This document shows, piece by piece, positions 24,067 to 63,363 of a DNA stretch of 64,000 bases. Positions within the stretch are counted from its first letter, which is position 1; the number at the start of each line of letters is the position of its first letter. The position numbers and the translations under genes were made by a program. Origin of the DNA: Ampullaceana balthica (taxonomy: Eukaryota > Mollusca > Gastropoda > Lymnaeidae); the NCBI GenBank assembly GCA_944989445.1, contig CALYLW010000212.1, positions 460,001 to 524,000 on the forward strand, in the 5' to 3' direction. The notes under the pieces are model-generated. The model made no database searches and was not told the origin of the DNA. It saw only the letters and a program-made list of their open reading frames with translations.

Positions 24067-27000
24067 CATATTCACGACTTTTACTCACAGTGAATTCTCC
24101 TGGAGAAAGCTGCGAGTTCACCGTTAAATACCTCGACGACTCAAGCTCTATTTCTGGAGAGATCACCCTGACCTCGAGCAAAAACGTTTTTCACCTGCCC
24201 GTACCTGAGAGGCCTGTAGTCACGGCGATAGAGGTCCGCCTTATCAAAGGGTTGATGAGGCTTTGTGAGCTGGAGGTGTTTGGAGGTAAAATGCTGTGCC
24301 AATCGGGAATTTGTTTCTCTACGCATTAACCTCATCATTTCTTTCATCTTTTTGGGTCCAATCTATCAGTGTTAATAAACAATTTTATTTTTTAAAAAAC
24401 TGTTAAGCTTTCCATTATCGATATTTCTTTATATAATAATTGAAGTACACTTAATAATACTAAATAGATCATTCGATAAACTTAGTTTCTTTTATTTACT
24501 CAATACTTAAGAACACTTAGGTCTATGGTCAGATTTTTTTAGGAGTATATGATAATGTTAAAAGTTGCTATATTATTCTTTACTTATATGTTCATTCAAC
24601 TCACCGAACCATGTGTATACCTGTCTGTCAGGAATATTCTGTAACAAAAAATATTTCATAGTTAGTAAAAGAGATTAAATATTTGTATAGATGAATTTTC
24701 ATTAAAAAAAATATATGACAACAGAAAGAAATATGCGTGATTTCATTTGTATAACCACTTTTAATATTCATATTTTAGTACGATTTGAATGACATATTTG
24801 GGAAATGTATTTTAGCTCTTTAATTATAATTGCCTATTTTAGACCTGGAAAATGTCAGGATTTAGTTTCATAAATGCACATCTTTCCCACGTACTGACCG
24901 CGCTGCCTGGTTGCACCAATGTATCATCACTCTGCCACAATGACTGATAGAGTTTCTCATAAACTTGTTTCATTAACAGATTGTCCCCCGCCTTACCACG
25001 GCACACTCTGCAACAAATACTGTAAACCAAACTGCTTGAATGACGTGTGCAACTATGAAGGGGCGTGTCTTGAGTGTGATATAAACAGTTCAGGTTTAAC
25101 GTGCGATAAAGGTAGAGCATTAAAAAAATGTAAATACTTCGAAACGTTTTTATTTTTAAATATGACATTTTATTTTATTTTAATCAAACCGAGATGACGC
25201 ACGTCTTTGTCAGTCACAGCTATAAAAGTGCAAATGAGTAATCCCGCAGTATCAGAGGAGTCATTAATGGAGTGCTGAAGGTGCGGACCACACCATGTGA
25301 CATGATCAGGAGATCAGGTAGTAAAAGTTAAGTCCCCTCTTCACACCATGATGGCCTATGGGAGCCAGTGAAGTAACGTTCACGGTCTTTTGTTAGCCAT
25401 GACAGACGAGGGATTGTTTGGCTAGCACAATGCCCAACAATCAAAAGATACGACATCAAAATTTAAAATTATGTATGTTCCCGTTATTGGGCAATAACAA
25501 ATTCGGAGGAGGTCTACGGGGAAAGTCGTGAGGGGGTGACACTCTGAGCTACCGCACTGGGTGACATCAATCTTAGTGACGCCTCTGCTCAATAACGTAT
25601 TACGGCTTAAGCACTCATCACAGGTGACTTCTTGTTCCCAATCAAAGCAACTCGTCCTGAGTTACAGTGGAATGAATTTAGACCAGTGCTTAAACTTTCA
25701 TCTAAACTTTCATCTAAACTTTCATCTAAACTTTCATCTAAACTTTCATCTAAACTTTCATCCAAACTTTCATCTAAACTGTCATCCAAACTTTCATCTA
25801 AACTGTCATCCAAACTTTCATCTAAACTTTCATCAAAACTTTCATCTAAACTTTCATCTAAACTTTCATCTAAACTTTCATTCAAACTTTCCTCTAAACT
25901 TTCATCTAAACTTTCATCGAAACTTTCATCTAAACTGTCATCCAAACTTTCATCTAAACTTTCATCTAAACTTTCATTCAAACTTTCATCTAAACTTTCA
26001 TTTAAACTTTCATCTAAACTTTCATCCAAACTTTCATTTAAACTTTCATCTAAACTTTCATTCAAACTTTCCTCTAAACTTTCATTTAAACTTTCAACTA
26101 AACTTTCATTCAAACTTTCATCTAAACTTTCATCTAAACTTTCATTTAAACTTTCATCTAAACTTTCATCTAAACTTTCATCTAAACTTTCATTCAAACT
26201 TTCATCTAAACTTTCATCTAAACTTTCATTTAAACTTTCATCTAAACTGTCATCCAAACTTTCATCTAAACTTTCATCTAAACTTTCATCTAAACTTTCA
26301 TCTAAACTTTCATTTAAACTTTCATCTAAACTTTCATTTAAACTTTCATCTAAACTTTCATCTAAACTTTCATTTAAACTTTCATCTAAACTGTCATCCA
26401 AACTTTCATCTAAACTTTCATCCTAATTTTCATCTAAATTTTCATCTAAACTTTCGGCTAAACTTTAATCCAAACTTACAACTAAACTTTTATCCAAACT
26501 TACATCAAAACTTTCATCTAAACTATCATCTAAACTTTCATCTAAACTTTTATCTAAACTTTCATCTAAACTTTCATTTAAACTTTCATCCTAATTTTCA
26601 TCTAAATTTTCATCTAAACTTTCGGCTAAACTTTAATCCAAACTTACAACTAAACTTTTATCCAAACTTACATCAAAACTTTCATCTAAACTATCATCTA
26701 AACTTTCATCTAAACTTTTATCTAAACTTTCATCCAAACTTTCATCCAAACTTTCATCCAAACATTCATCTAAACTATCATCTAAACTTTCATCTAATCT
26801 TTCATCTAAACTTTTATCTAAACTTTCATCCAAACTTTCATCCAAACTTACATCTAAACTTTTATCTAAACTTTCATCCAAACTTACATCCAAACATTCA
26901 TCTAAACTATCATCTAAACTTTCATCTAAACTTTTATCTAAACTTTCATCCAAACTTTCATCCAAACTTACATCTAAACTTTTATCTAAACTTTCATCCA

Positions 27001-40800: not shown

Positions 40801-43800
40801 ATTTGGAAGATTTTTACCTAAACAAATAAATGCCTACATTGCTTGCCGAATTGCTTGACCCATATTGTTCCATATTGCAAAACATGGATTGCTGCAGGGA
40901 GTTCACTGCCATAGCTAAAGAGATCGGACTAAGTTGAAAAAAAAATGAGAGATTTCATTGAAGAAAAGGTAAAAATTGCTGATGAGAGGAGAAGCTAAGA
41001 ATAGCTGAAGAAAAAGAAAAGCAAACAATTGCTAAAGAAGAAGAAAAGCTAAGAAAAGCTGAAGAAAAAGAAAATAAAAGAATTGCTGAGGAAAAAGACA
41101 GACAAAGACAAATCATTGAAAGAGAAGAAAGACCTGCAAGGAAAGAGCTTGAACAACTTCAAATTAACAAGTTAAAGCTGTAAATTGATTTAGAGAGTAG
41201 AGGCCGCAATCCTGGAGGTGACACAAACGGAAAGTCAGCACCGAAAGACACTATCAAATATAGAAAATGTGATAGCCAGAGAGAAAAAATTGGTGTTTAT
41301 CTGGATTATTTCAAATACATAATGGCCATGGGGGGGGGGTTATAATGAAGAAGATTGGCCAGCACAATTGATGACTCATTTAACTGGAGAAGCATTTGAA
41401 GCTTACAACAGTATATCCAAAGAAGACAAAAGCATATATAAAAATGTCAAAGAGGCACTTCTGTGTCGTTTAGGAAAGTCGGAGAATGATTATAGAAAGG
41501 AATTTCGTGGGGTGAGAGTCAGGATGGACAGGGATCCACGGATCATGGTGCATGAAGTGCGAATTAATTTGACGAAATGGCTGAAACTTGCAGCGATAGA
41601 TATGAGCAATCCAGGGGCCATACTAGACATGGTGTTAATTAACAAGTTTTTAGAAAATGCAACACCAACTCTATTCACATATTTAACTGGTGGGAGGGTT
41701 CGTGCTCAAGCAGAGCTTACAAATGCGTTACGCACATTCAGAGACTCTCATTCAAATGTGGAAATGGATAAGAGACAGGATGTCTTTGCATTAATGCAGA
41801 TTAAGAGTCAAGAGAGAAGACAAGGTATGAGAACCCAATGTCTGCCAAACCAAGGCAACAGACAAACTATTTGCTGGTACTGTGACAAGCCAGTACATGT
41901 GGCGGGGCAGTGTTGCCACAGTAAAGGACAAGCAGGTAGGGTGTCACCTAATGGCTGCCCTGTGGGAAAGAGGGCAGAGGGGGGATCAAGACTGGGAAAC
42001 TTTGAAAACAGAGCTAGACAAGCATGGAAAGAAAAATATCAGCATAATTCCAGACATAGAGATTATGATCAAAGTAGACAATCATTGAGAGACAGACATA
42101 ATCATAATTCCATAAATAGAGATTATAAACAAAGCAGAAAATCATGAAGAGGCAGATATAGTTTTGATTCCAGAATAAGAAATTTTGATCAGCCATGGAG
42201 AAAGAATGAAAACCAAGACATGAATGATAGAAGAAAAGTGAATCAAGAAGAAACAAGCACTTCTGACACTTTAGCCACTATTAAAAATCAAGTATATGGT
42301 AAAAGGGATGAAGGCCATAGTAGCAGAGATAGAGATGCTACTAGTGAATCTGAAATTATTCGTGTGGAATCATCTGAAGTAGGAAGAACAATTGGTAGTT
42401 TATTAAGCAGAATCAAAGACATAGATAAAAACAATGATTTTCAGATAAAGCTTTCTACTGACAGTGACTCATCTGGTCGAAATTCTATTGACCTATCTGG
42501 AAGCACAAATGACATCTAAAAAGCTAAGCAACTCATTCAAGATGCTGGAATTGATATTGTGAATGGACATAATCGAAGTAATGGTTGGTGAATTATTGAA
42601 TATTTAACAGTTTGAAGAAACATTCAAAACCCAACGATTTGAATTCATACGCGTCAACTGAAGAATGACTATTTTTAAACTAGGCTATGCTATTAGCCGA
42701 CTACAAATTTGACATTAAACCTGTGAAGGGAAAAGACAATGTGGTTGCAGACATATTAAGTAGAATGACAATAAATAAAGACATTCTGTAAATTCCTAAG
42801 TGATAAAACCAGAGACTTTATCAATATTAGTCTGTGAATTCCTCAATGATAAAACAAGAGGCTGTATTAAAAAGACATTCTGTGAATTCCTAAATGATAA
42901 AACCAGAGTCTGTATTAATATTAGTATGTGAATTCCTAAATGATACAACCAGAGACTGTAATAATATTAATATTTTTATTCTTTGAACAATAGACAAGGA
43001 ACAGTCTTTGAATTCCACTGGATTATTAGTTAATTTTAATAATATTGATTGCTAAAAATATTTTATTTACCCAAAATTACTGATTTGTTTAAAAATTCAG
43101 TTTCATTTTTTCAGTACAGGTACACTGTTGAAGCCCTACAGATTTTTTCTCTTGATTTTTATGTCTAAATCTTGTGTGTAAGGCTATGAATGTCAATTGA
43201 TGATAAATATTTGAAATTTGAATATATATATATTGATTAATTTGATTTTAATAAGACCAAAAATGTCGTATTTCATAAACATTTTTTTGAAGGATGGGGT
43301 TGAATGTCACGGGTGAATCACGAGTGTTTTGCGTGATGGTATGACGGAGAGGTCACGTGAGTAACAAGCGCGGGGAGAAAGAGTCGTTCCCATTGGCTAA
43401 TGAGGTGGGATAGTCAGAGTTAGAGTGGGCTGGTGTCAAGTTGGCAGATGTGTGTGCCTGAGTATTCCACGTTATATAACCTCAAATTATGTTATGTACA
43501 TAGTATACATATTAAAGTTGTTTTATTGAAACAAGTTCTTCAGAGGATTAATGTGTACAATGCTTAGGCATTGAGAGAACGCCTACAAGAGTTACATTAA
43601 TAAGTAAATCAGTTACAACCATATTTTAGGAGTTTACATACTATGTGTGTAGTTAGTTATTTCTCATTAGCCTAAGGGATTTCAACTTAGATATTAAATC
43701 TACTTTTTTCTTTTGCATTGGGCGGGCGTGTGTGTTGGCGCGTTACAGTTCTCAAAAGGCATATTTTGAGTGATTTGTTTGAGCGTTCTACAATTTAAAA

Positions 43801-49900: not shown

Positions 49901-52900
49901 ATAACTAAAAAGTTAAAGTAAACGTGTGAATTCTGTGTAAGGGGGGCTGTCTATAAATGACGTCACGCGATTTTAGCCGATTTTTAACCCCCTCCCCTCT
50001 CGTCACAAAAATTAGACCCCCGTTCCAATATGACGTCACAAAGCTTCCCTCCCCCCCATTAAAAGCAGTATTTTTTCGTTCAAAATTAGCATGTTTCAAA
50101 CTACTTCTTTGTCATTTAAGTATGTATTTAGAGTGAGGCTGCACTTTAATATCGTAACACATGAAGCCATTTACAACGTCATTAAATAAATTGTAAGATA
50201 TCAAATATTGAATTGGAACTTTTATTTTAAGTTGCACGTTTTTGATGTGACGTCATATTTCTTAAACACCCCTCCCCCTTGTCACACATTGTTACAAATG
50301 TGTGACCTCATGGCTTCATTTATGGACGGCCCCTAATTTCAACACTAAAAATACAATAAGTATGTCTTTTAATTCTTTCTAATAACATTGTTATGCTGTT
50401 GCTAATCATTCATGAGTATTTCTTACTATTAATGCGACTTGTGCAGCATGACTTTTCTGATAGCTTTGTAGTCTGGTTGATACGTGGAGATATTAAGCTT
50501 CATGCAGGCGTGGATAATTTTTATTTTTATTTGTTTGTTTTTTTTTGGTTTCTTAATTTTACGTGCCATTAATATGTAGATCAAAGGAGTCTGAAGAAAC
50601 TTTTTTTTCTTTAATAATCGAACATTTGTCTGCCAGTCAGCCGCTACCCTCAATAGAGCCACATCTGGTTTGTGAGCCATCGTTTCCCGACCCCTGATAT
50701 AAGGGATTTAAAATTAAATCAAGATTTTGAAAAGTCGAAGTTTGTATCATCAAATAAGATTAATGTTTTTGTGTAAGCTTTTTTCCCCCCACCCTATCAC
50801 TAAATAAGCAGTCAATGTGTTTATATAAGAAAAAAAAATGAATAAATGATAATGGAATGTTCATATTAAATGCTGTATAAAAAAAAACATCTGTGACTAA
50901 CCATTAATTATTAGTACTAAGTTGATCATTGCAATGTCTTTTTTTTTGTAGTTTGTGCTATTTGTTGTACATAGCTTTCTTTCGCACTGAAAAGGTGTGC
51001 CGAAAATATGTTACATAAAAAAAAATATTTGCCGACAAAAACATTTATTTAATTTTGTCCAAAGGGGAAACAACCCATGCATGACTGAAATGGTCAGCTA
51101 ACAATTCATGGTTATAGCCGAATGCTAGGGTAATGAAACAACCAAGAAATACGATTAAATACAAAAACAAACCTGTTGATGTTTTTTTGTTGTAAATAAA
51201 ATGATATTTGCGACTTGGTTTTCAAAAAGCAGCATTGGGAAACACGGATCTTTGTAGTTTAACGCATATTACTCTATAGACTTGGAAATGCGCCCCGAAA
51301 TAGTATATACATCATTTTATGTGCAGAGAATTGTTGACTAACTTTCTGATGCATAAATTGAAATCCAAATGGTTTTTTAGTATGTCAACTCAACTGAAAG
51401 CTTGGGAAAACCCTCTAGATTTGGAAAAAAATAAAATTCTTCCGGTATAGGCAAATTCAACATAAATAAATAGATTCTTATTAAAATCATCTTTAAAATA
51501 AGCTCTAGCCTTAAATGTTTCATTTAAAAAATTATTTTAATATATAGAAATAAAAAGAAAAAAAATTAAGATAACATTCCTGATGAGAATCGAATTTATG
51601 ATAAACAAGCAACGGAATAAATGACCTTAAAAACGCCAAAAGTTTAACATGTTTTATTATGAAAAACTTCATCTGCTTTCAGCTATTAGCAGCCCAATGT
51701 GTCACTGCGAGACTAACCACTGCTCTGAATCAGCGAAATGTTTGCTGGGATCCTCTTGTAGGTTAGGATGGTTTGCTTGGAATTGTCTGTACAGTGAGTC
51801 TTATTCTTGTCAGTGAAGTAGGTTTAACTCTTGTCAGTGAAGTAGGTCTTATTCTGGTCTGTGAAGTAGGTCTTATTCTTGTCAGTGAAAAAGGTCTTAT
51901 TCTGGTCTGTGAAGTAGGTCTTATTCTTGTCAGTGAAGTAGGTCTTATTCTTGTCAGTGAAGAAGGTCTTATTCTTGTCTGTGAAGTAGGTCTTATTATT
52001 GTCAGTGAAGAAGGTCTTATTCTTGTCTGTGAAGTAGGTCTTATTCTTGTCAGTGAAGTAAGTCTTACTCTTGTCAGTGAAGAAGGTCTTATTCTTGTCT
52101 GTGAAGTAGGTCTTCTTATTCTTGTCAGTGAAGTAGGTCTTATTCTGGTCTGTGAAGTAGGTCTTATTCTGGTCTGTGAAGTAGGTCTTATTCTTGTCAG
52201 TGAAAAAGGTCTTATTCTGGTCTGTGAAGTAGGTCTTATTCTTTTCAGTGAAGAAGGTCTTATTCTTGTCTGTGAAGTAGGTCTTATTATTGTCAGTGAA
52301 GAAGGTCTTATTCTTGTCTGTGAAGTAGGTCTTATTCTTGTCAGTGAAGTAAGTCTTACTCTTGTCAGTGAAGAAGGTCTTATTCTTGTCTGTGAAGTAG
52401 GTCTTCTTATTCTTGTCAGTGAAGTAGGTCTTATTCTTGTCTGTGAAGTTAACCTCACTTTTGTCACTAAAGTGATTCAAATTCTTTTCATTATTTTTTT
52501 TTAGTATAGTTGTTCTAAATTTTTTTCAATGAAGTTTTATCCTACTTTGCACATTTTCTTATGTTTTAATTATTAGTCAGCATTCAAGTTTACTTAGAGC
52601 AGTATCCCATTCTAACATTTGTGATCTTGACATTACATGACATAGACTATATGTTTTTCTTGTTTTTTTAGTCCATCTCCCACACTTTTTAATGCCAGCA
52701 AATGTAAAATTTCCTTTTCATTCTGTACCTTTCAACTAAACTACATCATTTGCACTATATATTTAAGTAGTGATTGTTGCCGATGCATCTACTATTTTTT
52801 TTATCAATTTCGTATCATATCTTCTTTGAGTTAAGTGTAAAATCTTTTGTAAAAGATTTTGCTGCTATAAAACATTACCGTCCTCAGGAATAGTATTATA

Positions 52901-55900
52901 ATATAGCAGTACCAGTACGTCAGCACGATATTACTACTAATGGAGCAATGCACAATAGTGTTAATATCTTTCTTGAGAACATTGTCAGAAGAGAAATAGT
53001 ATTTAAGATCATCATATCCTTAGCTAGAGGGTATTTTAAAAACATAAATTTTATTAGGATTTCTATGTGTTAAATGTAGAATGCAAGGAGAAAGAAGCGA
53101 ACACAATCATCATTAAGAATTTCTTCTGCTTAAGGAAGTTTACAAAAACAAAAATATTATTTATAACTTTCGTTAAAGTGACGTTTATGAGAAAATAACA
53201 ATTTTTTAACACCATCATATTAAAAGGATATATTGACAGAGTAGAATAATTTTTTAGCTCTATCTTCTGCTTAGGGGACATCGCCATCACAGCAGAGTTT
53301 GATGTCCCATTTTTGAATGATGGTGACGAAAAGACCTGTATTACCGCGATGAATCACTCAGTGACTTTGAAACTCACTGATGCAATTATGTTCACTTGGC
53401 TCCGACTAGTATTTGACACGTTGGGTAAGTATTCTTTACTTTGTAAGGTCTAGTTCAGTTGTGAGAATTTATTTATTATCAAATAGTCTTATTTTTAAAA
53501 TAATATATAATTTAAAAAAATATAATATTTTTAACTAAGGGGCCGTCCATAAATGACGTCACGCACCTAGGGGGGAGGGGGTCACACTTTTGTGACGATG
53601 CGTGACGAGGGGGAGGGAGGGGGTTGAAGAAATGTGACGTCACATCAAAAGGGTAACTTTAAATTAAACATCCACTGAAATATTTGGTCGCTTACAATTT
53701 ATTTAATGACTTTTTTTAAAAAATCAGTGCTTCTCAATGTGCCGGTCGGTAGGCCATCAGACGCTGGTTGGCGTAAGGTATCAAGACACGAAAATTAAAT
53801 CTAATTATAATCCTTAAGTTTGAGAATCCTTAAGATAACATATGAAATTGTTACACTGCTTCGTTTGATGTTGACATCAAAGAATGTGTGATGTAACCGG
53901 AGCTCGTTTGGTTCTCTCATGAGTCGAACTTTTTTCCCGTTACTCCAACGTATACAAGTTTATGTGTGCATTACCCCCCCCCACCCCCAGACTCTAGGTC
54001 ATGCTCACATGACTCGGGGATTTTGGGGAGCTTGTTAGCCCCCTTTCCGAAAATGCTACTGGTGAGTTTTACAAGCATGACAAGTGTTTAAAAATGATCT
54101 GAATAGGATTATGTGTAGGTATTTTAAGTCAAAACGACACGGAATATCCTTTTTCTTTAAAAGGGGAAAGGGGGGATCTATTTGATGGAATTAAAAACGT
54201 TTTAAGTTTGATATAATTGTTCGATTGGTTTTTGGTCAAAAACCCCTAGACATTCTAGTCTTCTAGATCAGTGCTTCTCAAAGTGGTGGTCCGCGGACCG
54301 GTGCCAGTCCGCAGATGTTTACAAAAAAAAGGACAGAAAAAATTGTCAGTGCAAGGAAAATAGTGAACTGGTCCCCGGTGCAATGGAAAAAATTCCTGCA
54401 GGTCCGCCATACTAAAAAGTTTGAGAAGCACTGTTCTAGATATAGTGGTAAATGAGCCCATTTAAAATTAGTCAAGTATTCATTAACTTTATTTAATGCA
54501 TTAAATTCTTGACATCGCAATTCGAGAGGAGCAGAAAACAACTTTTCTTCTTAGCTCAGTTTTTAAGGCATTAATTTTAAATATCACAGAAAGGATACGC
54601 AACACAGACGAGTCATGTGGATTAAAATTATTGTCACTCGTGTCAATATAAATGAAAGTAGGGTAGATTTAGGTGTCTTCGTATAGTACGTAGATAAGAA
54701 ATCTGCATAGTTGTCAAATTTTTAAAAAAATGCATTTTCTGGAAGGAACCGGTTCAATAATGGGCATATGTTCCAAGCGTACACGTACACATGACGTATT
54801 ATAATATATCTAGTGGATTGTAGTGGATGTTATATGTCCCAAATGAGTGCATTACCCCCAAGAATTCCTTTTTTGACCCCAGATGAGGTTATTTACCTCT
54901 GTTCGCCGAACTCTTTCTTACGGGATGCCTGTCAGTCAATTGAGGGATTTTAAAAAAATACATTTTAAAAATGTTATTTTTAATACCGGTAATTTTTTTT
55001 TCTAAACAAAGAAGTTAACCGTGATGATTAATAGTCAATGTTTAATTTGTATGCAATAAAATAAAATATAATCTAAGGATGTTTGAACACAGTTCGTTTT
55101 CTGAAGACCGGTTAAATGTTTTTTTTTAAAATGCTTCACGCGGGTTACGATATTACAATGTAGATCTTCACTAAATAAATAATAAATACTTAAATGAAAA
55201 TAAAAGTGATTTGAAACATAATTCTTTACAAATAGAAAATAAAGTGGGTTTTTTTCGGGGGGGGGGTCAAAGATTTGTGACGTATTTTTACAGGGGGGGT
55301 CTACGTTTTTGTGACGACGCGTGACGAGGGGGTGGGAGGGGGTCAAAAATCGGCAAAAATCGCGTGACGTCATTTATGGACGGCCCCTAATGTATTTAAA
55401 GTTAATTATATTAAATTTAAAAGAAAAATTAAAAGGATGGAACAACTTTAGTTGCATTTCTATAAAAAGTTATTTAAGTTGAGTCATGAAATTAATAATT
55501 TCCTTTTAATTTAAGATATTTTTTCGAAACAACTACTAAATTTTATATGTGTTGGTAAATAGTTTGTATACTACATTTTTAGCTTGATATATATATAACA
55601 TATATTAAACAATTTACTTCGGTAAAATTAGTTTTACCGTAGTTTTGTTTTACATTTTAGAGTACATTTTAAAACTTGCTACACTTAAAATAATAATATA
55701 GGGAAAACAAGTAATTAAAATTCTTATTTTATTAAAATTATTTCTTCTTCTTTGAACTTTCACGTTTAAAACAGAGTCTTATCAAAGCAAATTAAAATAT
55801 TAACACATTATTTAATTTTGTATGTCTTTGAAATGCAAATATTTGTTTCTTGTTTCATGCTTTAACCCTTACCCCCCCCCCACCCCCCCCAGAAATACCA

Positions 55901-58077
55901 AGAAATATTAGCCTCGAATTGAGCGTGTACAGAAACGGCGTACATGGCTATCAAGAGTGCAAGTGGGCCAGAGTGCTGGAGATTGGGAAAAAAGTTGTTG
56001 ACGTTTTCTGCACGTTTAAATACGCTGTACACGGCATTATCATAAGTTGGCTGGGGATGGCTACATTGTGTTCTGTGTATGTTAACGGTGGTAAGGCGAG
56101 CTCTGGTGAATGGCTACATTGTGTTCTGTGTATGTTAATTGTGGTAAGGCGACTTCTGGTGCATGGGTACATTCCTTAAAGTTAAACATATTTTTGTGAG
56201 CAAAGATTTTCGATGGTTAGTTCCTTAAACTTTAGACAAATTTACTTTAGGATTCTAGTGTTCTCTACGCAGAATTTGTTTTAAAAGTGCCTCAGTGTAA
56301 AAATATATGGGTCGATACTGAAATAAATGTATGGGTATTTAAAATCTCAAACGTGGGCTTTCGTGATATTTACCATTAATGATTAGTGTGGACCTACATA
56401 AAATAGAACACATTTTTGTGTTTCTTAACAAATATTTTATAGAATAAAATTCGTCATTGTTAATGTAAATTAGCATTTCTAATTAACTTATTTCACACCC
56501 CTAAAATAAAATATTCACCTTTATCTCATAATATACTATTCTAAAATAATGCCATTATATTTTTGCTTAGGCATTTCATTTGTGTTCTTGAAGTTTTAAT
56601 GGCCCATGAACTTAGCTTTAGTGGATATAAGTAAAATACCATTGTAGTGTTATTTTTAAGTGATATAATTTCTGCTATCATGTTTATTTCTCAATAAATT
56701 TCCACAACGTTGACTTTTTACTCCGTAATTTAAAATATAAAAAATCACAGGTCGCAACGTTTTGAGTAAAGGACTAACTACCTTTACTAAATCTCTCGAC
56801 AAGTCTATAGTGAACAGCATGTCAGCAACGGTTACTGATGGCTTCATCAGCCAACAGTTATGTATTACACTGAGCCCGACAATTCCGCATTTCTTTCAAT
56901 TTGAGGCTCCGCGTATCGTGGGCACAGTAATAATTTACACAGGTAAAATGTCGGCATATTTATCACAAACATTAAAACTCGGCTGTAAAATGTATTTCAA
57001 ACATTTACTTTGAAGTTAATATCTTCTTAATAACTGAAACAGACATGAACTCTTTTTAAACATTTTTTAAAATAATATTTTTTTTTACAAACATCAGCTT
57101 TAACGTGAATGTCCTCTATAAACATTGACTTAAAGTACACAACTTTTTTCCTAGCATTAACAAAACATAAAACTATCCTTGCAACATTGACATAGACTTA
57201 CGACTCTAAACATTAATTACACATTACTGGACATGAAATTCGCCTCAAAAACTGTCTTAGGCGTAAAACTAATCTTTGAATATAAATCGCATTTCTAGCG
57301 ATTCTCTACACCCTAGAGTTTAAGCACAAACATTTTCGTGATTAAATTACGAAAAAGTAACCCATTTTTTCTTTAGGGGCCGGGGGTGTTATTCAAGTCT
57401 GATTCTAAGTATAGATTAAAGAAGCAACTGAAAAAACTTAAACTTCTCTCTTTATTTCTTTTCATGCGCTTTTTATTTATTGAAGTGATAATATCTTAAT
57501 TACTTTGTGTTGTGAGTGGCATTTAGCCAGTTGATCATCTCATGGCAAAACCTAATTTAGAAATTCAATTTAACTGTAAGGCATGGAAATGCAAATATTA
57601 ATCTACACCCTTGTAATTGTTTTGTTTTTATTACTTTTAGACAAAAAGGACACAGAGACGTTTAGCTTCGATATAACTTTTATCGGCGCATCGAACACTT
57701 CCATTGGTAAAAGAACAGAGACGTCAGAAAATTACGTCTTTAAATATTTCCTGCCAACTAGTTCAGTTATCTCCATGTTGAGCATTTTATTACGTCACGG
57801 CACGATGTCCATCTGCGAGATAGAAGCCTACGGAGGTATACAAAAGCCTTTAATTCTTTTAGTTTAGAAAATGATATTCGGTTATGATTGCACACGTTTT
57901 TGTGTGCAACAATTCAAGGTTTTATTCTACTGATAAAAAAAAACAATAAACAACTGTAGCCTGTTTAATAAGCGTTGTCATTTCAATGCGTGAAAAGAAT
58001 TATTAATACTTCAATCAGGTTTTTGGTTGATATGAGGACTTATTTCAACACACACACTCATGTATATATGCATTAAC

Positions 58078-58649: not shown

Positions 58650-61600
58650 CATTTATGCATGTGTGTGTGTTGAAATAAGTCCTAATAGCAGCCAAAAACC
58701 TGATTGAAGTATTAATAATATTTTTCCTGCATTGAAATGTTATATATCTGAGAAAACCTAAAGACTTAACCAAGACACAAACTTGCTCACACTTTAATAA
58801 ATAAAAATAGTTTAAAAACTTTTTTATGGTTATATCCTCCTAGAAATATTTCTTCTACGACAGAAATGTCTAAAAATAATAAAAGTAGGTAAATAACTTT
58901 TGATGTCACCTTTCTGAGAACTAAGAAGACGTCTCAATGTAGTTTGTTATCTCATCTAACTATAGATTGTCCAGCTCCTTATTTCGGCCCCGATTGCAGC
59001 CAAATGTGTTCTTCTTACTGTTCCAACGGTCTATGCAACTACGAAGGTCATTGTTACCAATGCAAGATGGTTCCGTTATGTGAAGGAGGTAGTTACAATT
59101 TAATTCATGAAAACCTTTTTTTAAGTTGACATATTTTTAAAGACTTACATGCTTTATAGTTTAAAGTGAACTTAGCTCATATTGGTGGGGACGTAAATGT
59201 TTGTTTGTCGTGAAGAGGGGGACATTGTTGATGAGGTCACTATCTTGGTGTCGTTCAGGAAACGTTTTTGTCAAAAAAAAATAATTGTCTTTGTTGGTGT
59301 CATATAATGTACAAGTATTGGGGAATAAAGTCCATGTCTTATATGGAATGGAGGAAAGGGTGTCGTCAATAAAGTCCATATTGAGTGTCAGAGAAGATTT
59401 CGTGTTTTCGATAAACCCATTGATCTGTTGCATGTCTTAATAAAGGAAGGAATGTCGACCTTACGACAGCTGTCTTGTTTTGTGTGCATTACTTTAACCC
59501 ATACCTCGTTCAAATCACCTTCTTTCAGACAATCAAGCCCAACCCGTTGAAACCCGTAGGTAAAACCTCGTTTAAATCACCTTCTTTCAGACAATCAAGC
59601 CCAACCCGTTGAAACCCGAAGATTAAACCTCGTTCAAATCACCTTCTTTCAGACATTCAAACCCAACCCGTTGAAACCCGTAGGTTAAAACTCGTTCAAA
59701 GCACCTTCTTTCAGACAATCAAGCCCAACCCGTTGAAACCCGTAGGTTAAACCTCGTTCTAATCACCTTCTTTCAGACAATCAAACACAACCCGTTGAAA
59801 CCCGTAGGTTAAACCTCGTTCAAATCACCTTCTTTCAGACAATCAAACCCAAACCGTTGAAACCCGTATGTTAAACCTCGTTCAAATCAAATTCTTTCAG
59901 ACAATCAAGCCCAAACCGTTAAAACCCGTATGTTAAACCTCGTTCAAATCAAATTCTTTCAGACAATCAAGCCCAACCCGTTAAAACCCGTAGGTTAAAC
60001 CTCGTTCTAATCACCTTCTTTCAGACAATCAAACCCAACCCATTGAAACCCGTAGGTTAAACCTCGTTCAAATTAACTTCTTTCAGACAATCAAGCCCAA
60101 CCCGTTGAAACCCGTAGGTTAAACCTCGTTCAAATCACCTTCTTTCAGACAATCAAGCCCAACCCGTTGAAACCCGTAGGTTAAACCTCGTTCAAATCTC
60201 CTTCTTTCAGACAATCAAGCCCAACCCGTTGAAACCCGTAGGTTAAACCTCGTTCAAATCACCTTCTTTCAGACAATCAAGCCCAACCCGTTGAAACCCG
60301 TAGGTTAAACCTCGTTCAAATCACCTTCTTTCAGACAATCAAGCCCAACCCGTTGAAACCCGTAGGTTAAACCTCGTTCAAATCACCTTCTTTCAGACAA
60401 TCAAGCCCAACCCGTTGAAACCCGTAGGTTATACCTCGTTTAAGTCACCTTCTTTCAGACAATCAAGCCCAACCCGTTGAAACCCGTAGGTTAGACCTCG
60501 TTCCAATCACCTTGTTTCAGACAATCAAACCCAACCCGTTGAAACCCGTAGGTTAAACCTCGTTCAAATCACCTTGTTTTAGACAATCAAATCCAACCCT
60601 TTGAAACCCGTAGGTTAAACCTCGTTCAAATCACCTTCTTTCAGACAATCAAACCCAACGCGTTGAAACCCGTAGGTTAAACCTCGTTCAAATCACCTTG
60701 TTTCAGACAATCAAACCCAACCCGTTGAAACCCGTAGGTTAAACCTCGTTCAAATCACCTTCTTTAAGACAATCAAACCCAACCCGTTGAAACCCGTAGG
60801 TTAAACCTCGTTCAAATCACCTTCTTTCAGACAATCAAACACAACCCGTTGAAACCCGTAGGTTAAACCTCGTTCAAATCACCTTCTTTCAGACAATCAA
60901 GCCCAACCCGTTGAAACCCGTAGGTTAAACCTCGTTCTAATCACCTTCTTTCAGACAATCAAACACAACCCGTTGAAACCCGTAGGTTAAACCTCGTTCA
61001 AATCACCTTCTGTCAGACAATCAAATCCAACCTGTTGAAACCCGTAGGTTAAACCTCGTTCAAATCACCTTCTTTCAGACAATCAAACCCAAACCGTTGA
61101 AACCCGTATGTTAAACCTCGTTCAAATCAAATTCTTTCAGACAATCAAGCCCAACCCGTTAAAACCCGTAGGTTAAACCTCGTTCTAATCACCTTCTTTC
61201 AGACAATCAAACCCAACCCATTGAAACCCGTAGGTTAAACCTCGTTCAAATTAACTTCTTTCAGACAATCAAGCCCAACCCGTTGAAACCCGTAGGTTAA
61301 ACCTCGTTCAAATCACCTTCTTTCAGACAATCAAGCCCAACCCGTTGAAACCCGTAGGTTAAACCTCGTTCAAATCTCCTTCTTTCAGACAATCAAGCCC
61401 AACCCGTTGAAACCCGTAGGTTAAACCTCGTTCAAATCACCTTCTTTCAGACAATCAAGCCCAACCCGTTGAAACCCGTAGGTTAAACCTCGTTCAAATC
61501 ACCTTCTTTCAGACAATCAAGCCCAACCCGTTGAAACCCGTAGGTTAAACCTCGTTCAAATCACCTTCTTTCAGACAATCAAGCCCAACCCGTTGAAACC

Positions 61601-63363
61601 CGTAGGTTAAACCTCGTTTAAGTCACCTTCTTTCAGACAATCAAGCCCAACCCGTTGAAACCCGTAGGTTAGACCTCGTTCCAATCACCTTGTTTCAGAC
61701 AATCAAACCCAACCCGTTGAAACCCGTAGGTTAAACCTCGTTCAAATCACCTTGTTTTAGACAATCAAATCCAACCCTTTGAAACCCGTAGGTTAAACCT
61801 CGTTCAAATCACCTTCTTTCAGACAATCAAACCCAACGCGTTGAAACCCGTAGGTTAAACCTCGTTTAAATCACCTTTTTTCAGACAATCAAACCCAACC
61901 CGTTGAAACCCGTAGGTTAAATCTCGTTCAAATCACCTTCTTTAAGACAATCAAACCCAACCCGTTGAAACCCGTAGGTTAAACCTCGTTCAAATCACCT
62001 TCTTTCAGACAATCAAACACAACCCGTTGAAACCCGTAGGTTAAACCTCGTTCAAATCACCTTCTGTCAGACAATCAAACCCAACCCGTTGAAACCCGTA
62101 GGTTAAACCTCGTTCAAATCACCTTCTTTCAGACAATCAAACCCAACCCGTTGAAACCCGTATGTTAAACCTCGTTCAAATCACCTTCTTTCAGACAATC
62201 CAGCCCAACCCGTTGAAACCCGTTGGTTAAACCTCGTTCAAATCACCTTCTTTCAGACAGTCAAACCCAACCCGTTGAAACCCGAACCAACGAGGACATT
62301 GAGGGGATCATGATAAAAGCCTTCACGACCTGCTTCCTGTTTCTCTCCTTTTACATGTTGTTTTACTGTCTTCTGTTTAAGAAGCGCAAAGAACCGACAC
62401 ATCGTCAAACACTTGTCCATAATGGTAGGTTTATATCTGTATAAGCAGTGATTTAAAAAAAAAGATGTAAACAATATTTGCCCGCTGGATATCGTAGTAA
62501 ATGGTGCACTAGCCCCACAAGCTGAAGTTGTGGGATCTAGCCTGCGCTAATAAAAATTTTGATGTATAACTATTGCTAAAAAGTCCAACGCTGAGTTGGA
62601 ATGGAGATGGGCGCCACCAAGTCTACTAAGACTCGAGAAAATTCTACGGCCGCGAAGTCATGAATAAAATAAAATTTCAAATAAAAAAAATAATAATATT
62701 AATGACATTTGTTTGAAGTTTGAGAAGAAAGAGAAAGATAAAATCAAATTAAGTTGTTAAGGGTGTAGCTTCGAAACAGTTGCGTAGCATAAGTAATTGC
62801 CAAGACCTGTGCATTTATTCTTTGACAATTAAGAACTGTGGACTGATAGCTTTCCCTCCATAAAGGCATACGCTAACGAACATAAGTGCATACAACTGAC
62901 TCTGTATCCCTAATACTATCACTACTACAATCGAGTAGACCTATATCTGCTACTAAATACTAGAGCTACCCGCTCTATCTATAATGTCTTATCCTAACAA
63001 TGTTCTATGATCATCCCTACAGTTGCCCTGGTTGTTACGTTACGTTAATACAACGGTAGCGTAAAATCTACTTTAAAGGCTGTATCTGCACCTCCAGTAA
63101 TTAATTGAATTTACTTTTTGTTAAAGAATATTAAGGTTAATTGTCGACGTTTCATATTATTACAAAGAAGTAGTTTCAGTTTTGAGAAACCCCCTTCTTA
63201 AACAGAAGTTTATACTATAGCTTTTCAAGTCCATATTGGTGTTAGAACTACACACATTCACACTCTTGCAAATTGAATTTGTTGACTTGTAAACTTTTAA
63301 AACTATTCATTTTCAGAAGATGAACTTTCTTATTCATTGACATCATCGTCAGGTTCAGGGTAG
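31782..63363 (+). CDS. Gene 2: EGF/FTP lectin-like transmembrane receptor
   Basis: Predicted type I membrane protein of 915 codons in 18 exons: 31782-31830, 32891-33031, 33641-33820, 35286-35480, 39307-39528, 44126-44344, 45507-45641, 46538-46678, 47361-47501, 49241-49381, 51683-51793, 53275-53424, 55893-56090, 56751-56942, 57641-57835, 58966-59088, 62257-62424, 63317-63363. The chain is open throughout and all introns are phase 1. Order: signal peptide, EGF (1.5 repeats), FTP-like A and B, four EGF-like, EGF, FTP-like A and B, EGF, transmembrane helix, 15-residue Ser-rich tail. Unit-1 domain B is the most canonical FTP domain of the window. It lacks the IgGFc-N-like region of gene 1 and has four extra EGF exons. 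A surface lectin or scavenger-type receptor is inferred; ligand unknown. The first exon is the least certain part. Confidence 0.82.
32524..32675 (+). mobile_element. tRNA-derived SINE, second copy
   Basis: GGGGCACGGGTGGCATTCGC head, B-box-like GGTTCGAGAAC, body with CTGAGTCCACCCAGCTCTGA and GGTACCTGACATTAGTTTGG. The same body is found at 2021-2162. Confidence 0.8.
32891..33031 (+). CDS. Gene 2: EGF-like module, start of unit 1
   Basis: Acceptor AATTTACCACAG, donor GTAAGT, phase 1-1. Begins with an extra half repeat SCDLGWFGSLCQF, then CHCEEGCDPDGQC, ARCEAGWFGLLCQY. The ending equals that of gene 1 unit 1 (GWFG..CQY). Confidence 0.88.
33641..33820 (+). CDS. Gene 2 unit 1: FTP-like domain A, first half
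   Basis: Acceptor TTTACTGTTTAG, donor GTTTGG, phase 1-1. QNLAALPSADVSTVPVQNDS, then LVDNNDTTC and VVFTWLRIAVRDE. 180 bp, about 30 bases longer than its paralogues. Confidence 0.88.
33950..34020. repeat. ATCC/CATC tetranucleotide repeat
   Basis: CCATTTATCCATCCATCTAT and continuing CATC/CATA words; a related GATG tract is at 5615-5670. Confidence 0.8.
34264..35179. mobile_element. Tigger-like element (916 bp)
   Basis: Left CAGTAGTACCTCGAGATA and right (reverse complement) CAGTGGTACCTCCAGATAC, flanked by TA on both sides. Inner repeats CAAGATACGAAA. No transposase frame was recognised. Intron between the halves of unit 1 domain A. Confidence 0.8.
35286..35480 (+). CDS. Gene 2 unit 1: FTP-like domain A, second half
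   Basis: Acceptor TTACTCTCAACAG, donor GTAAGT, phase 1-1. ATNITSLTLSFKAAF, FEVSC strand and KLCSFYVSGG end. Confidence 0.88.
35481..36369. other. Intron of gene 2, mostly featureless
   Basis: AT-rich. From 36160 it shares GTCCAAGGACGAGAATAAG and CACCCCCGTCTGTCCAGAG words with 27890-27930 and 36940-37040, a dispersed repeat of unknown class. Confidence 0.4.
36370..36910 (+). repeat. Family R repeat, plus copy
   Basis: CCCGTAAAAACAAAGTTTTT, ATAAACTAAAAATGCATGAA, TTAATTACGGTACGG, GTGAAGTTAATATAAGGGAT. A full-length-looking copy. Confidence 0.75.
37060..37280. repeat. Dispersed repeat (Q), third copy
   Basis: CTCAAAATAAACTCTTGG, CTGCACCAAAAAATAACTCG, GAGGGACCAATAGCTGTCGA, CTTTTATTATACAGG, as at 27740 and 28429. 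Confidence 0.7.
37765..38229 (+). repeat. Family R repeat, plus copy
   Basis: CCCCGGAAAAACAAAGTTTT at the start, ACGGTACGTTCGTTCGATCT in the middle, and GTTAATCTAAGGGATTT at the end. About 460 bp. Confidence 0.8.
38238..38700 (+). repeat. Family R repeat, plus copy
   Basis: Directly follows the previous copy: CCAGTAAAAACAAAGTTTTT to AAGTGGGTCTTTTTTAAAAT. It forms the left arm of a large inverted pair with 38690-39190. Confidence 0.8.
38690..39190 (-). repeat. Family R repeat, minus copy
   Basis: AAATCCCTTATATTAACTTT to GACTATAAATCCC-type words read in reverse, ending AAAACTTTGTTTTTACGGGG. Head-to-head with the previous copy, making an imperfect palindrome of about 0.95 kb. Confidence 0.8.
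39200..39285 (+). repeat. Family R tail next to an acceptor
   Basis: TTCGCCCGACCGACATACG, GATGACGACAGAGAGAGAG and AATATAAGGGATTTAAAAAG, ending about 20 bases before the acceptor of the unit 1 domain B exon. Confidence 0.7.
39307..39528 (+). CDS. Gene 2 unit 1: FTP (fucolectin-type) domain B, first half
   Basis: Acceptor GTTTGTTCTCAG, donor GTAAGA, phase 1-1. The best FTP match of the window: GRNLALRQNVSQSSES, KASNAVDG, NACSHTNN, APQWWNLTFDQ, VIARYVLYNRE. These are the hallmark NLA..QSS, NAVDG, CSHT, P.WW and YNR motifs of fucolectin/tachylectin-4/pentraxin-1 domains, which bind fucose in known members. Confidence 0.93.
39760..40071 (+). repeat. Left LTR
   Basis: 312 bp, TG...CA ends, with a TATATAA box (near 39932) and AATAAG/ATTAAAG words. 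Differs from the right LTR by a few substitutions. Confidence 0.85.
40948..42519 (+). pseudogene. Degenerate gag of the LTR element
   Basis: Starts with a Lys/Glu-rich coiled coil (broken by stops), then YLDYFKYIM, a frame break at a run of G (41331-41340), then the open frame 41368-42147 with WPAQLMTHLTGEAFEAY just upstream and inside it, and a CCHC zinc knuckle CWYCDKPVHVAGQC. A stop at 42145 separates a last frame (42220-42519). Several disablements. Confidence 0.8.
43305..43617 (+). repeat. Right LTR
   Basis: 313 bp, matching the left LTR closely. Confidence 0.85.
43874..43951. repeat. (TA)n microsatellite
   Basis: About 75 bases of TA, 175 bases before the unit 1 domain B second-half exon; the paralogous intron of gene 1 also has a TA tract near its 3' end (23994). 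Confidence 0.95.
44126..44344 (+). CDS. Gene 2 unit 1: FTP domain B, second half
   Basis: Acceptor TATGTAAATTCAG, donor GTAAGC, phase 1-1. Starts LMGFKLESFNG (usual 'RL.GF.L' strand) and ends LLTLCEVEAYGG, the textbook FTP ending. Confidence 0.93.
44372..44798. mobile_element. Harbinger-like MITE, decayed copy
   Basis: Shares its interior with 49943-50333 (CTGTATGACGTGACAAAGCTT, AGCATGTTTCGAATCAC, TCGTCACACATCGTGACAAA) and ends GTGACGTCATTTACGGACGG. The left end is decayed (GGCGTCCATATATTACATCA). Confidence 0.7.
45102..45260. repeat. Dispersed repeat, second copy
   Basis: AATAATAATAATAATGAT, AGCGCTGTACCCAGCCAGC, GCTCTGAGCGCTTCACATAA, related to 20270-20380. Confidence 0.65.
45507..45641 (+). 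CDS. Gene 2: EGF-like exon 1 of the inter-unit block
   Basis: Acceptor ATGATCTCACCAG, donor GTGAGT, phase 1-1. ECRPKSWGLDCQPC, NQSCNRDSGGCDSGCAGF, PPDC. Eight-cysteine MEGF-type module. Confidence 0.9.
45905..46120. repeat. Dispersed repeat (as 21160 and 5039)
   Basis: GAGGATTATTGCGTACTACG, TTTGTGTCTAGTCCTGCAT, TCCGGACTGGAAGAACGAG, TTGTTCTTGCATACGAATA. Ends right before the decayed LTR. Confidence 0.5.
46133..46365 (+). mobile_element. Degraded solo LTR of the same family
   Basis: TGTCACGGGATAATCACAAG, TTATGAAACCTCAATGTTAT, GTACATAGTGTGCATATTAAA and TTCTTCAGAGGATTATTGCA align along the LTRs of the element at 39760 with many changes. Confidence 0.75.
46538..46678 (+). CDS. Gene 2: EGF-like exon 2 of the inter-unit block
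   Basis: Acceptor TCTTATTTCAG, donor GTAAGT, phase 1-1, 141 bp. CPPGTWGVNCSLSC, CFGHSC, TGFCDIGCAGC, PNC. Confidence 0.92.
46741..47340. other. Intron of gene 2, no feature seen
   Basis: AT-rich intron, no repeat or coding signal recognised. Confidence 0.5.
47361..47501 (+). CDS. Gene 2: EGF-like exon 3 of the inter-unit block
   Basis: Acceptor TTCTCTATTCAG, donor GTAAAT, phase 1-1, 141 bp. CTRGRWGLDCEEIC, CHKNSCDRRTGLCDLGCDGF, PNC. Not in an ATG-started frame, so easily missed. Confidence 0.92.
47666..48304. mobile_element. Tigger/pogo-like MITE (639 bp)
   Basis: Left CAGTCGGACCTTTCTAAGTC; right reverse complement CAGTCAGACCTCTGTAAGTC. Internal word AAGTCGAA repeated at the left and mirrored at the right. 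TA before the left end. Confidence 0.82.
48305..49240. other. Intron of gene 2, short repeats only
   Basis: Contains CTGACAGGACGTCACA near 48800 (shared with the Penelope 3' region at 13511), a short TA tract (49003-49025) and diffuse repeats of TTGATGTTT (49027-49180). Confidence 0.45.
49241..49381 (+). CDS. Gene 2: EGF-like exon 4 of the inter-unit block
   Basis: Acceptor CATGATCACAG, donor GTATGC, phase 1-1, 141 bp. CSPGKWGVNCTSTC, CLYDYCHKDTGVCDLGCDGY, PNC. About half identical to exon 3, suggesting recent exon duplication. Confidence 0.92.
49450..49815 (+). repeat. Family R repeat, plus copy split by a hAT insertion
   Basis: CCCTTACATATGAGACACAA, CAAAATTTCAGCTCGATATG and GAAGATAATATAAGG, then resumes with AAGGGATTTAAAA at 50701 after the hAT element. 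Confidence 0.75.
49816..50696. mobile_element. hAT-like element with perfect target duplication
   Basis: Starts CAGGGGTTGGGAAACTTT and ends GTTTCCCGACCCCTG; flanked on both sides by ATATAAGG (49808-49815 and 50697-50704). It carries a nested Harbinger-like MITE at 49943-50333. Confidence 0.88.
49943..50333. mobile_element. Harbinger-like MITE nested in the hAT element
   Basis: Left GGGGCTGTCTATAAATGACG, right reverse complement GGGGCCGTCCATAAATGAAG, with TAA on both sides. TAA duplications fit PIF/Harbinger. Copies at 44372 and 53539. Confidence 0.8.
50712..51682. other. Intron of gene 2, no feature seen
   Basis: AT-rich intron before the unit 2 EGF exon; nothing recognised. Confidence 0.5.
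51683..51793 (+). CDS. Gene 2: EGF-like module, start of unit 2
   Basis: Acceptor CATCTGCTTTCAG, donor GTGAGT, phase 1-1. MCHCETNHC, KCLLGSSCRLGWFAWNCLY. Same ending as the gene 1 unit-2 EGF. Its donor is the first unit of the 24-bp array. Confidence 0.85.
51792..52456. repeat. 24-bp tandem array starting on a donor site
   Basis: About 27 units of a 24-bp motif (CAGTGAAGTAGGTCTTATTC then TTGT; some units with TCTGTGAAG, a few 27 bp long). The first unit, ACAGTGAGTCTTATTCTTGT, contains the exon end and functional donor. Long open frames on both strands come from the period being a multiple of 3. A block of about 13 units is itself duplicated (51900s and 52200s). Confidence 0.93.
52457..53274. 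other. Intron of gene 2, no feature seen
   Basis: AT-rich intron after the 24-bp array; no repeat or coding signal. Confidence 0.5.
53275..53424 (+). CDS. Gene 2 unit 2: FTP-like domain A, first half
   Basis: Acceptor TCTTCTGCTTAG, donor GTAAGT, phase 1-1. RDIAITAEFDVPFLNDGDE, KTC, then IMFTWLRLVFDTL. Nearest relative is gene 1 unit 2 (19773), same 150-bp length. Confidence 0.9.
53539..55387. mobile_element. Harbinger-like element, 1.85 kb, with nested insertions
   Basis: Left GGGGCCGTCCATAAATGACG and right reverse complement GGGGCCGTCCATAAATGACG are identical over 20 bases; TAA at both flanks. Subterminal G-rich strings and GTGACGACGCGTGACG mirrored. It holds a hAT MITE (54269) and a hAT remnant near 53727. 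No transposase found. Confidence 0.85.
54269..54433. mobile_element. hAT-like MITE with perfect 8-bp target duplication
   Basis: CAGTGCTTCTCAAAGTGGTG to AGTTTGAGAAGCACTG, flanked by TTCTAGAT at 54261-54268 and 54434-54441. Confidence 0.92.
55893..56090 (+). CDS. Gene 2 unit 2: FTP-like domain A, second half
   Basis: Acceptor is an unusual C-only tract (CCCCCCCCCCACCCCCCCCAG), donor GTAAGG, phase 1-1. EIPRNISLELSVYRNG, VVDVFC strand, ATLCSVYVNGG end. Confidence 0.9.
56057..56162. repeat. 53-bp tandem duplication of an exon end and its donor
   Basis: ATGGCTACATTGTGTTCTGT at 56057 recurs at 56110, each copy ending in a donor (GGTGGTAAGGCGA, then TGTGGTAAGGCGA). The second donor, if used, adds 53 bases and shifts frame. 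Confidence 0.93.
56751..56942 (+). CDS. Gene 2 unit 2: FTP-like domain B, first half
   Basis: Acceptor AAAAATCACAG, donor GTAAAA, phase 1-1. GRNVLSKGLTTF, MSATVTDGF (degenerate NAVDG), one Cys, end VGTVIIYTG. Confidence 0.88.
57641..57835 (+). CDS. Gene 2 unit 2: FTP-like domain B, second half
   Basis: Acceptor TTATTACTTTTAG, donor GTATAC, phase 1-1. DKKDTETFSFDITFIG and end MSICEIEAYGG. Confidence 0.92.
57976..58745. mobile_element. Fold-back element with TA tracts and a nested insertion
   Basis: Arms mirror each other: left TATTAATACTTCAATCAGG, GGACTTATTTCAACACACAC; right GTGTGTTGAAATAAGTCC, CCTGATTGAAGTATTAATA. Each arm runs into a (TA)n tract (58080-58127, 58577-58648). Between them, GGGCTGCTGAAATTAACGAT and TTAATCGATTAATCG look like a second, hAT-like insertion. 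Confidence 0.75.
58966..59088 (+). CDS. Gene 2: EGF-like module, end of unit 2
   Basis: Acceptor CATCTAACTATAG, donor GTAGTT, phase 1-1. DCPAPYFGPDCSQMC, NGLCNYEGHCYQC and a shortened end with one Cys. 9 bases shorter than its paralogue at 24980. Confidence 0.88.
59503..62256. repeat. 62-bp tandem array of a splice acceptor (44 extra copies)
   Basis: The unit includes TCACCTTCTTTCAG (the acceptor) and ACAATCAAGCCCAACCCGTT (the first bases of the next exon), then GTAGGTTAAACCTCG. The first acceptor copy ends at 59528 and the real one at 62256: 2728 bases, exactly 44 x 62. Few indels, mostly single substitutions. A block of about 19 units is duplicated (offset 1178). Confidence 0.97.
62257..62424 (+). 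CDS. Gene 2: transmembrane exon
   Basis: Acceptor ACCTTCTTTCAG, donor GTAGGT, phase 1-1. Juxtamembrane DSQTQPVETRTNEDIEG, helix AFTTCFLFLSFYMLFYCLLF, then KKRKEPTHR. Its first 28 bases are the source (or product) of the 62-bp array. The acceptor choice is set by reading frame: upstream copies lead to stops before the helix. Confidence 0.9.
62470..62680 (+). repeat. Possible decayed tRNA-derived SINE
   Basis: GCTGGATATCGTAGTAAATG and GGGATCTAGCCTG could be decayed A and B boxes, followed by GAGATGGGCGCCACCAAG. Weak. Confidence 0.3.
62681..63316. other. Last intron of gene 2, no feature seen
   Basis: AT-rich intron without recognisable repeats. Confidence 0.5.
63317..63363 (+). CDS. Gene 2: last coding exon
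   Basis: Acceptor ATTCATTTTCAG, phase 1 in. EDELSYSLTSSSGSG then TAG at 63361. The tail is much shorter than that of gene 1, but both start with an acidic ED/DED and have a Ser-rich run. Confidence 0.8.

Follow-up and report, generated by a model that had tools for sequence, protein, structure and literature searches.

A 45-unit minisatellite copying the intron-exon boundary ahead of the membrane exon of a predicted receptor gene in the mollusc Ampullaceana balthica

We analysed a stretch of 64,000 nucleotides from the gastropod Ampullaceana balthica (assembly GCA_944989445.1, contig CALYLW010000212.1, positions 460,001 to 524,000), here called the window, which holds a predicted gene, gene 2, and an upstream paralog, both on the forward strand. 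The exons of gene 2 were called from the reading frame and GT/AG signals alone. The first one recognised, at 51683-51793, is cysteine-rich, encodes GWFAWNCLY, ends at the donor TACA/GTGAGT (the slash marks the exon end) and is where the model begins. It is followed by exons at 53275-53424 (both ends in phase 1), 55893-56090 (donor GGTG/GTAAGG), 56751-56942 and 57641-57835 (ending CEIEAYG), and by an EGF-like exon at 58966-59088, which ends in phase 1 at GGAG/GTAGTT. The next intron, 59089-62256, leads to the exon for the membrane helix (AFTTCFLFLSFYMLFYCLLFKKRK) at 62257-62424, with the donor AATG/GTAGGT; the last coding exon, 63317-63361, called from its frame, encodes a short cytoplasmic tail that ends in EDELSYSLTSSSGSG before the stop codon.

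The recognised exons join in phase 1 into one open frame of 393 residues, and the predicted product resembles a membrane receptor that is rich in cysteine, spans the membrane once and ends in a short tail. The domain names used for gene 2, EGF-like among them, describe a cysteine pattern, since no profile matches the gene: neither Pfam nor the PDB sequences gave a match to the corrected 393-residue protein at E 1. A search of a large protein set at E 0.001 returned no relatives of gene 2, the query being an early model with gaps, which lacked exons 51683-51793 and 55893-56090 and most of 56751-56942 and included about 13 residues read from intron. A galactose-binding (F5/8-like) model was reached solely by a different exon of the window. 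Elsewhere in the window, an open frame at 41323-42147 gives a SCAN-like match that is weak and misses the cut-off (E 0.0046) and shows, by eye, a zinc-knuckle-like stretch; it is possibly a retroelement remnant.

The intron ahead of the membrane exon ends in a 62-bp tandem array at 59503-62284, for which TRF reports a period of 62, 44.9 copies, 94% matches and 0% indels, and which unit alignment divides into 45 units. Each unit is made up of 27 bases of intron end with the AG, the first 28 bases of the exon and a 7-base joint. The array runs across the acceptor at 62257, a boundary called from frame and GT/AG alone, and is thus a minisatellite across an exon-intron boundary, leaving the intron with 44 upstream acceptors and the true one at its end. 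A preliminary description of this DNA had reported 45 tandem acceptor copies spaced over 44 units, and this holds: the first exon-like base lies at 59529 and the last at 62257, exactly 44 units of 62 bp apart, and the AG is kept in all 45 units, with the same 45/45 from a later copy probe. Its further claim, that each unit carries a strong acceptor and about 28 exon bases, stands for the splice signal and the 28 bases, present inside the repeat unit in 45 of 45, and needs qualifying for the acceptors, which are not all alike. The exact string CTTCTTTCAG occurs in 32 of the 45 units; the remaining 13 are variants, and the acceptor ends in AAG in two units and in TAG in another two. The true exon departs from the unit consensus at +4, and position +9 is divided evenly between A and G (22/22) among the 44 upstream units. 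RNA structure prediction on a four-unit stretch gave nothing notable (z-score +0.43).

The unit is in exact register with the true boundary and, along 55 bp, nearly identical to it; the left flank reappears at its start (TTAA...ACCTCG, minus 5 bp), and at its end it follows the exon as far as CCCG. Since both unit ends match local flanks and the unit matches the boundary over 55 bp, the array most likely arose locally, from gene 2's own intron-exon boundary rather than from an inserted satellite. When a 201-base query across the boundary was compared with the 1.1-Gb genome, at least 45 matches were returned, all within the array and its exon, these counts being lower bounds. Among the 45 units there are 27 distinct types. 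At an offset of 19 units, 13 of 25 pairs are identical, and units 8-22 differ from units 27-41 at 4 of 930 bases; this block copy appears recent and suggests instability in array length. Selection on the splice signals was considered and rejected, as these signals are no less variable than the other parts of the unit. Over the 44 upstream units 34 of the 62 columns are invariant, so that the probability of both AG columns being invariant by chance is about 0.30, and the mean number of non-majority bases per column, 1.53 for the whole unit, is 1.79 between positions -14 and -1.

Read in phase 1, all 44 upstream acceptors lead to a stop after 11-48 codons, ahead of the helix; acceptor 44 reaches its stop at 62311, barely within the membrane exon, and 62257 is the sole acceptor that reads through into the helix. 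Both results agree with what had been noted earlier, namely truncation before the helix in the phase of the previous exon and, for the last upstream copy, a stop just inside the exon. For every upstream choice (44/44) the stop lies at least 113 nt ahead of the junction at 62424. By the 50-55-nt rule, a stop that far upstream of a junction leads to nonsense-mediated decay, and these distances therefore predict decay of the mRNA rather than secretion of its product. To score the acceptors we used a splice-site matrix from 25 authentic acceptors of the paralog family (rows L010, L015, L016 and L025 dropped), which themselves score 7.5 on average (SD 2.8, minimum 2.5). The commonest array unit scores 7.0, and the 45 units have a mean of 5.96 and a range of 2.6-7.3. 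Array acceptors thus score within the authentic range, and most upstream sites therefore look usable.

The 414 intron bases ahead of the array hold AATAAA at 59324, 59368 and 59439, where base composition predicts 0.3; two of the three lie in a local duplication. Reading on past the EGF exon adds 13 residues before a stop at about 59129. These features make it conceivable that a secreted form is produced through retention of the intron and an early poly(A) site, a route that would not need the array, which itself lacks AATAAA and has a single ATTAAA.

The corresponding intron of the upstream paralog, between its EGF exon at 24980-25111 and its membrane exon at 27214-27399 (both from frame and GT/AG), also ends in an array, at 25691-27213, which is built of 127 copies of the 12-bp unit TAAACTTTCATC. 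The last of these units forms the acceptor of the membrane exon, and this is the only AG in 1523 bases, against 4.8 expected by base composition; the independent mutations are few, and avoidance of AG in this array is suggestive at most. To look for further membrane exons we went through 28 paralog loci (L011-L038) and 12 more stretches (L039-L050), judging candidates by their hydrophobicity, phase and acceptor. They were accepted in five of the 12 stretches (L039, L040, L041, L042 and L046) and in L034 and L038; six of the 12 stretches yielded none, and the candidate in L050 was dismissed, being AT-rich alone. Counting the two genes of the window, nine members of the family show both an EGF-like and a membrane exon; the other seven lie elsewhere. 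An array ends at the membrane exon in two of these nine, both in the window and with unrelated units (62 bp and 12 bp), and there is none at the membrane-exon acceptor of the other seven, in a sample biased to short introns. Among the nine, L041 has a donor-side array in this intron (100 bp, 2.2 copies) and none at the membrane exon. The bias arises because seven loci with an array right after the EGF exon (L011, L014, L015, L016, L017, L019 and L029) show no membrane exon within their stretch. L011 and L015, both on contig C16 and 95% alike, have in common a 46-bp array of more than 30 units shortly after the EGF-like exon; arrays can therefore persist through gene duplication.

Tandem copies of an intron-exon boundary have been described in lancelets as mirages, in the genes for Adh3, the globins BflGb6 and BflGb9, troponin C and PGBD5 (passages of PMC3087553 and PMC3902484). 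Within gene 2, a 24-bp array of 27 copies (51798-52449) starts 5 bp after the donor at 51793 and carries the donor-like CAGTGAAG in its units; a lenient probe finds 28 copies, 20 of which keep the GT. This array is a probable mirage, sharing about six exon bases. A 53-bp repeat of 2.2 copies at 56057-56173 consists of the last 34 exon bases and 19 intron bases with the donor, and, with the exon end as called at 56090, is a further boundary duplication within gene 2. Elsewhere in the window a 35-bp repeat of three copies (9295-9398) starts 31 bp past a donor at 9264 and has the donor-like GCGTGAGA in each copy. At the paralog locus L029 one EGF-like exon is flanked on both sides, by an acceptor array at 1225-1505 (26 bp, 10 copies, AG kept in 10/10) and a donor array at 1606-2071 (48 bp, 9 copies, GT kept in 8/9).

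As an unrelated comparison we took a haemocyanin gene in one 20-kb stretch (L053 and L054), with exon ends called from frame and GT; the automatic frame call disagreed with this call at two of seven donors. The 20 kb contain 17 array rows, 16 of them distinct as one crosses the border between L053 and L054. Together they cover about 34% of the stretch, and at that density some of them should touch exons in any case. Of the five donor probes, three found the exon end and donor in 41, 10 and 4 copies, with the GT kept in 41, 9 and 3; the 41-copy array has a 45-bp unit and runs through L053 8987-10000 and L054 1-1001 (contig C193). The other two probes found no copy beyond the original at the cut-off, though arrays begin in or beside the exon end. 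The molluscan haemocyanin beta-sandwich family has 35 matches in this genome and none in 14 control genomes, as befits a mollusc, and the haemocyanin matches run in parallel on contigs C193 and C677, possibly two haplotypes kept apart. From the exon edges as called, arrays at such edges are not special to the membrane exon, and occur also at donors of gene 2, in its paralogs and in haemocyanin.

Whether arrays lie near exon edges more often than expected was assessed with edges called from frame and GT/AG and with distance cut-offs picked after the data had been seen. On these terms, with 48 exon edges in the window, five of its 12 arrays have an edge no more than 35 bp from one of them, against 1.17 expected (P 0.001-0.004), and two of 12 lie within 10 bp, against 0.37 (P 0.05). 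The enrichment in 26 paralog loci is weak: 2/23 arrays at 10 bp (0.70 expected, P 0.15), 5/23 at 35 bp (2.29 expected, P 0.07) and 9/23 at 70 bp (4.0 expected, P 0.013). For these counts rows L015 and L016 were dropped as near-duplicates of L011 and L019, as was L010, which is the window itself, and period-10 AT runs were left out. An earlier placement test, in which arrays overlying exons were included too, gave no significant result (9/24 against 6.4 expected, P 0.14). Two 9-kb stretches elsewhere in the genome held six and two arrays; tandem arrays are therefore generally common in this genome.

We consider it probable that the 62-bp array is a mirage minisatellite that expanded from the gene's own intron-exon boundary, and that its upstream acceptors are by-products which splicing mostly ignores. 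The array, its frames and its local origin are read directly from the DNA; for its growth, we infer an initial duplication in which about 55 bp, the intron end plus the first 28 exon bases, would have been copied with a short joint, after which slippage or unequal exchange could have extended the array to 45 units, with a block copy of some 15-19 units as a recent step. All 44 upstream acceptors would then have arisen as by-products of this growth. The spliceosome would mostly take the last acceptor, at 62257, and slips to upstream acceptors would meet early stops and the transcripts probably decay. A preference for the last acceptor is expected because it is the sole one to define an exon of normal size (168 nt, up to the donor at 62424) and to have the complete exon sequence downstream. 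Against the mirage reading stands the strength of the upstream sites: many score like the real one, and transcription reaches the first of them 2.7 kb ahead of it, so that leakage could be large. The weak edge enrichment in the paralog loci and at 10 bp in the window, and the density of arrays in the haemocyanin stretch, also count against it.

Alternatively, the upstream acceptors might act as decoys that divert splicing to unproductive mRNA, with the copy number setting the amount of membrane receptor. We regard such a rheostat as unlikely. Strong decoys with early stops in all of them would suit it, as would the recent block copy, from which copy number is probably variable; against it, the PGBD5 paper, in the passages concerned, states that the Adh and troponin C mirages of lancelets give no aberrant mRNAs (PMC3902484), and the array of the neighbouring paralog holds no AG decoys. 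A broader version of the idea, to which we lend little credence, would make boundary-copying minisatellites a genome-wide force here, acting at exon edges as hypermutable rheostats in which the number of decoy acceptors or donors fixes how much of the mRNA of a large receptor family is unproductive, with decoys occasionally recruited as new exon edges and so giving rise to young introns, for example in haemocyanin.

The preliminary description had offered two interpretations, a decoy load that the cell must ignore and a splice-based switch in which upstream acceptors give a secreted receptor and the last a membrane receptor. The decoy load is the half that fares better, as the array acceptors score like authentic sites, whereas the support for the switch ends with the frames, and we consider the switch improbable. 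It is true that the frames fit, with 44 of 44 upstream choices ending before the helix, that the array offers acceptors of authentic strength, and that intron retention with the three AATAAA sites gives a route to a secreted form, though one that does not need the array. However, only two of nine family genes have an array at the membrane acceptor, with unrelated units (in that sample leaning to short introns); the splice signals show no excess constraint; the distance from the stops to the next junction predicts decay; the array is devoid of AATAAA, with its single ATTAAA; and similar arrays lie at exons that encode no helix, including those of haemocyanin. Among the functional readings, the copy-number rheostat is more plausible than the switch. 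Upstream acceptors may nevertheless see low-level or regulated use.

An assembly artefact, with the real array much shorter or longer, is very unlikely: tandem arrays are hard to assemble, but the presence of 27 unit types among 45 and the differences between the halves of the block copy argue against a simple artificial expansion, and long arrays recur on other contigs. In a Dscam-like cassette array, every unit has an acceptor and an in-phase donor that are both usable. That the units are 27-nt in-frame cassette exons, running from the acceptor to CCC/GTAGGT and giving a stalk of variable length, is scarcely credible and was rejected: 27 nt would preserve phase 1 and 43 of 44 units have the GT there, but the in-phase donors are too weak (their scores go no higher than 3.3, while 25 family donors all score 4.5 or more), the second donor-like place, TAG/GT, reaches 4.8-4.9 in 3 of 44 units and would make 31-nt exons out of phase, the introns between neighbours would measure 35 nt, and the variable columns, judged by eye from the column table, appear to be mostly amino-acid-changing.

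In the immunoglobulin heavy chain, alternative splicing or polyadenylation switches a receptor between membrane and secreted forms. Gene 2 resembles it in that a choice near the membrane exon could alter anchoring; it differs in that upstream choices would bring early stops followed by a junction, and no dedicated secreted terminus is known. A second comparison is the CeRep25B repeat of C. elegans, described in PMC4039745, which is likewise an intronic minisatellite tied to splicing choices and lies near alternatively spliced regions. That repeat holds two regulatory motifs, whereas the mollusc unit holds the acceptor itself.

For molluscs, we found no report of boundary arrays among the titles and abstract beginnings of the matches listed, with most subscription journals outside their coverage, and the passages of PMC3862624 and PMC7084494 report none. 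Gastropod haemocyanin genes are described, in the passages concerned, as intron-rich, several lineages having gained introns (PMC7931591, PMC8599328), and some of these introns could not be assembled owing to large, highly repetitive stretches (PMC7931591); a term search found neither mirage nor minisatellite in the main text of these two papers. Mirages have been proposed as a source of new introns (passages of PMC3087553), and the arrays at haemocyanin exon edges make a link between mirages and haemocyanin intron gain in gastropods testable.

The closest likeness is thus to the lancelet mirages, and what we describe is most likely a known kind of minisatellite, large in scale and here found in a mollusc. 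As in gene 2, the boundary copies of lancelets carry splice signals and both 5' and 3' boundaries are hit; in the globin mirages both are affected, and RT-PCR together with the Adh3 data suggests that regular splicing is undisturbed (passages of PMC3087553). Normal splicing and length instability are reported there in the passages concerned, whereas the mollusc array is known from its sequence. The two also differ in size, with 45 units of 62 bp here compared with 3-6 units of 150-160 bp in BflGb6 and units of 10-72 bp in Adh3, as given in those passages. In the mollusc, moreover, upstream copies truncate the predicted protein before a membrane helix, and several such arrays occur in the few genes that were read, haemocyanin among them. 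With 44 upstream acceptors, many of them as strong as the real one, gene 2 provides a natural test of how the spliceosome chooses among equal sites.
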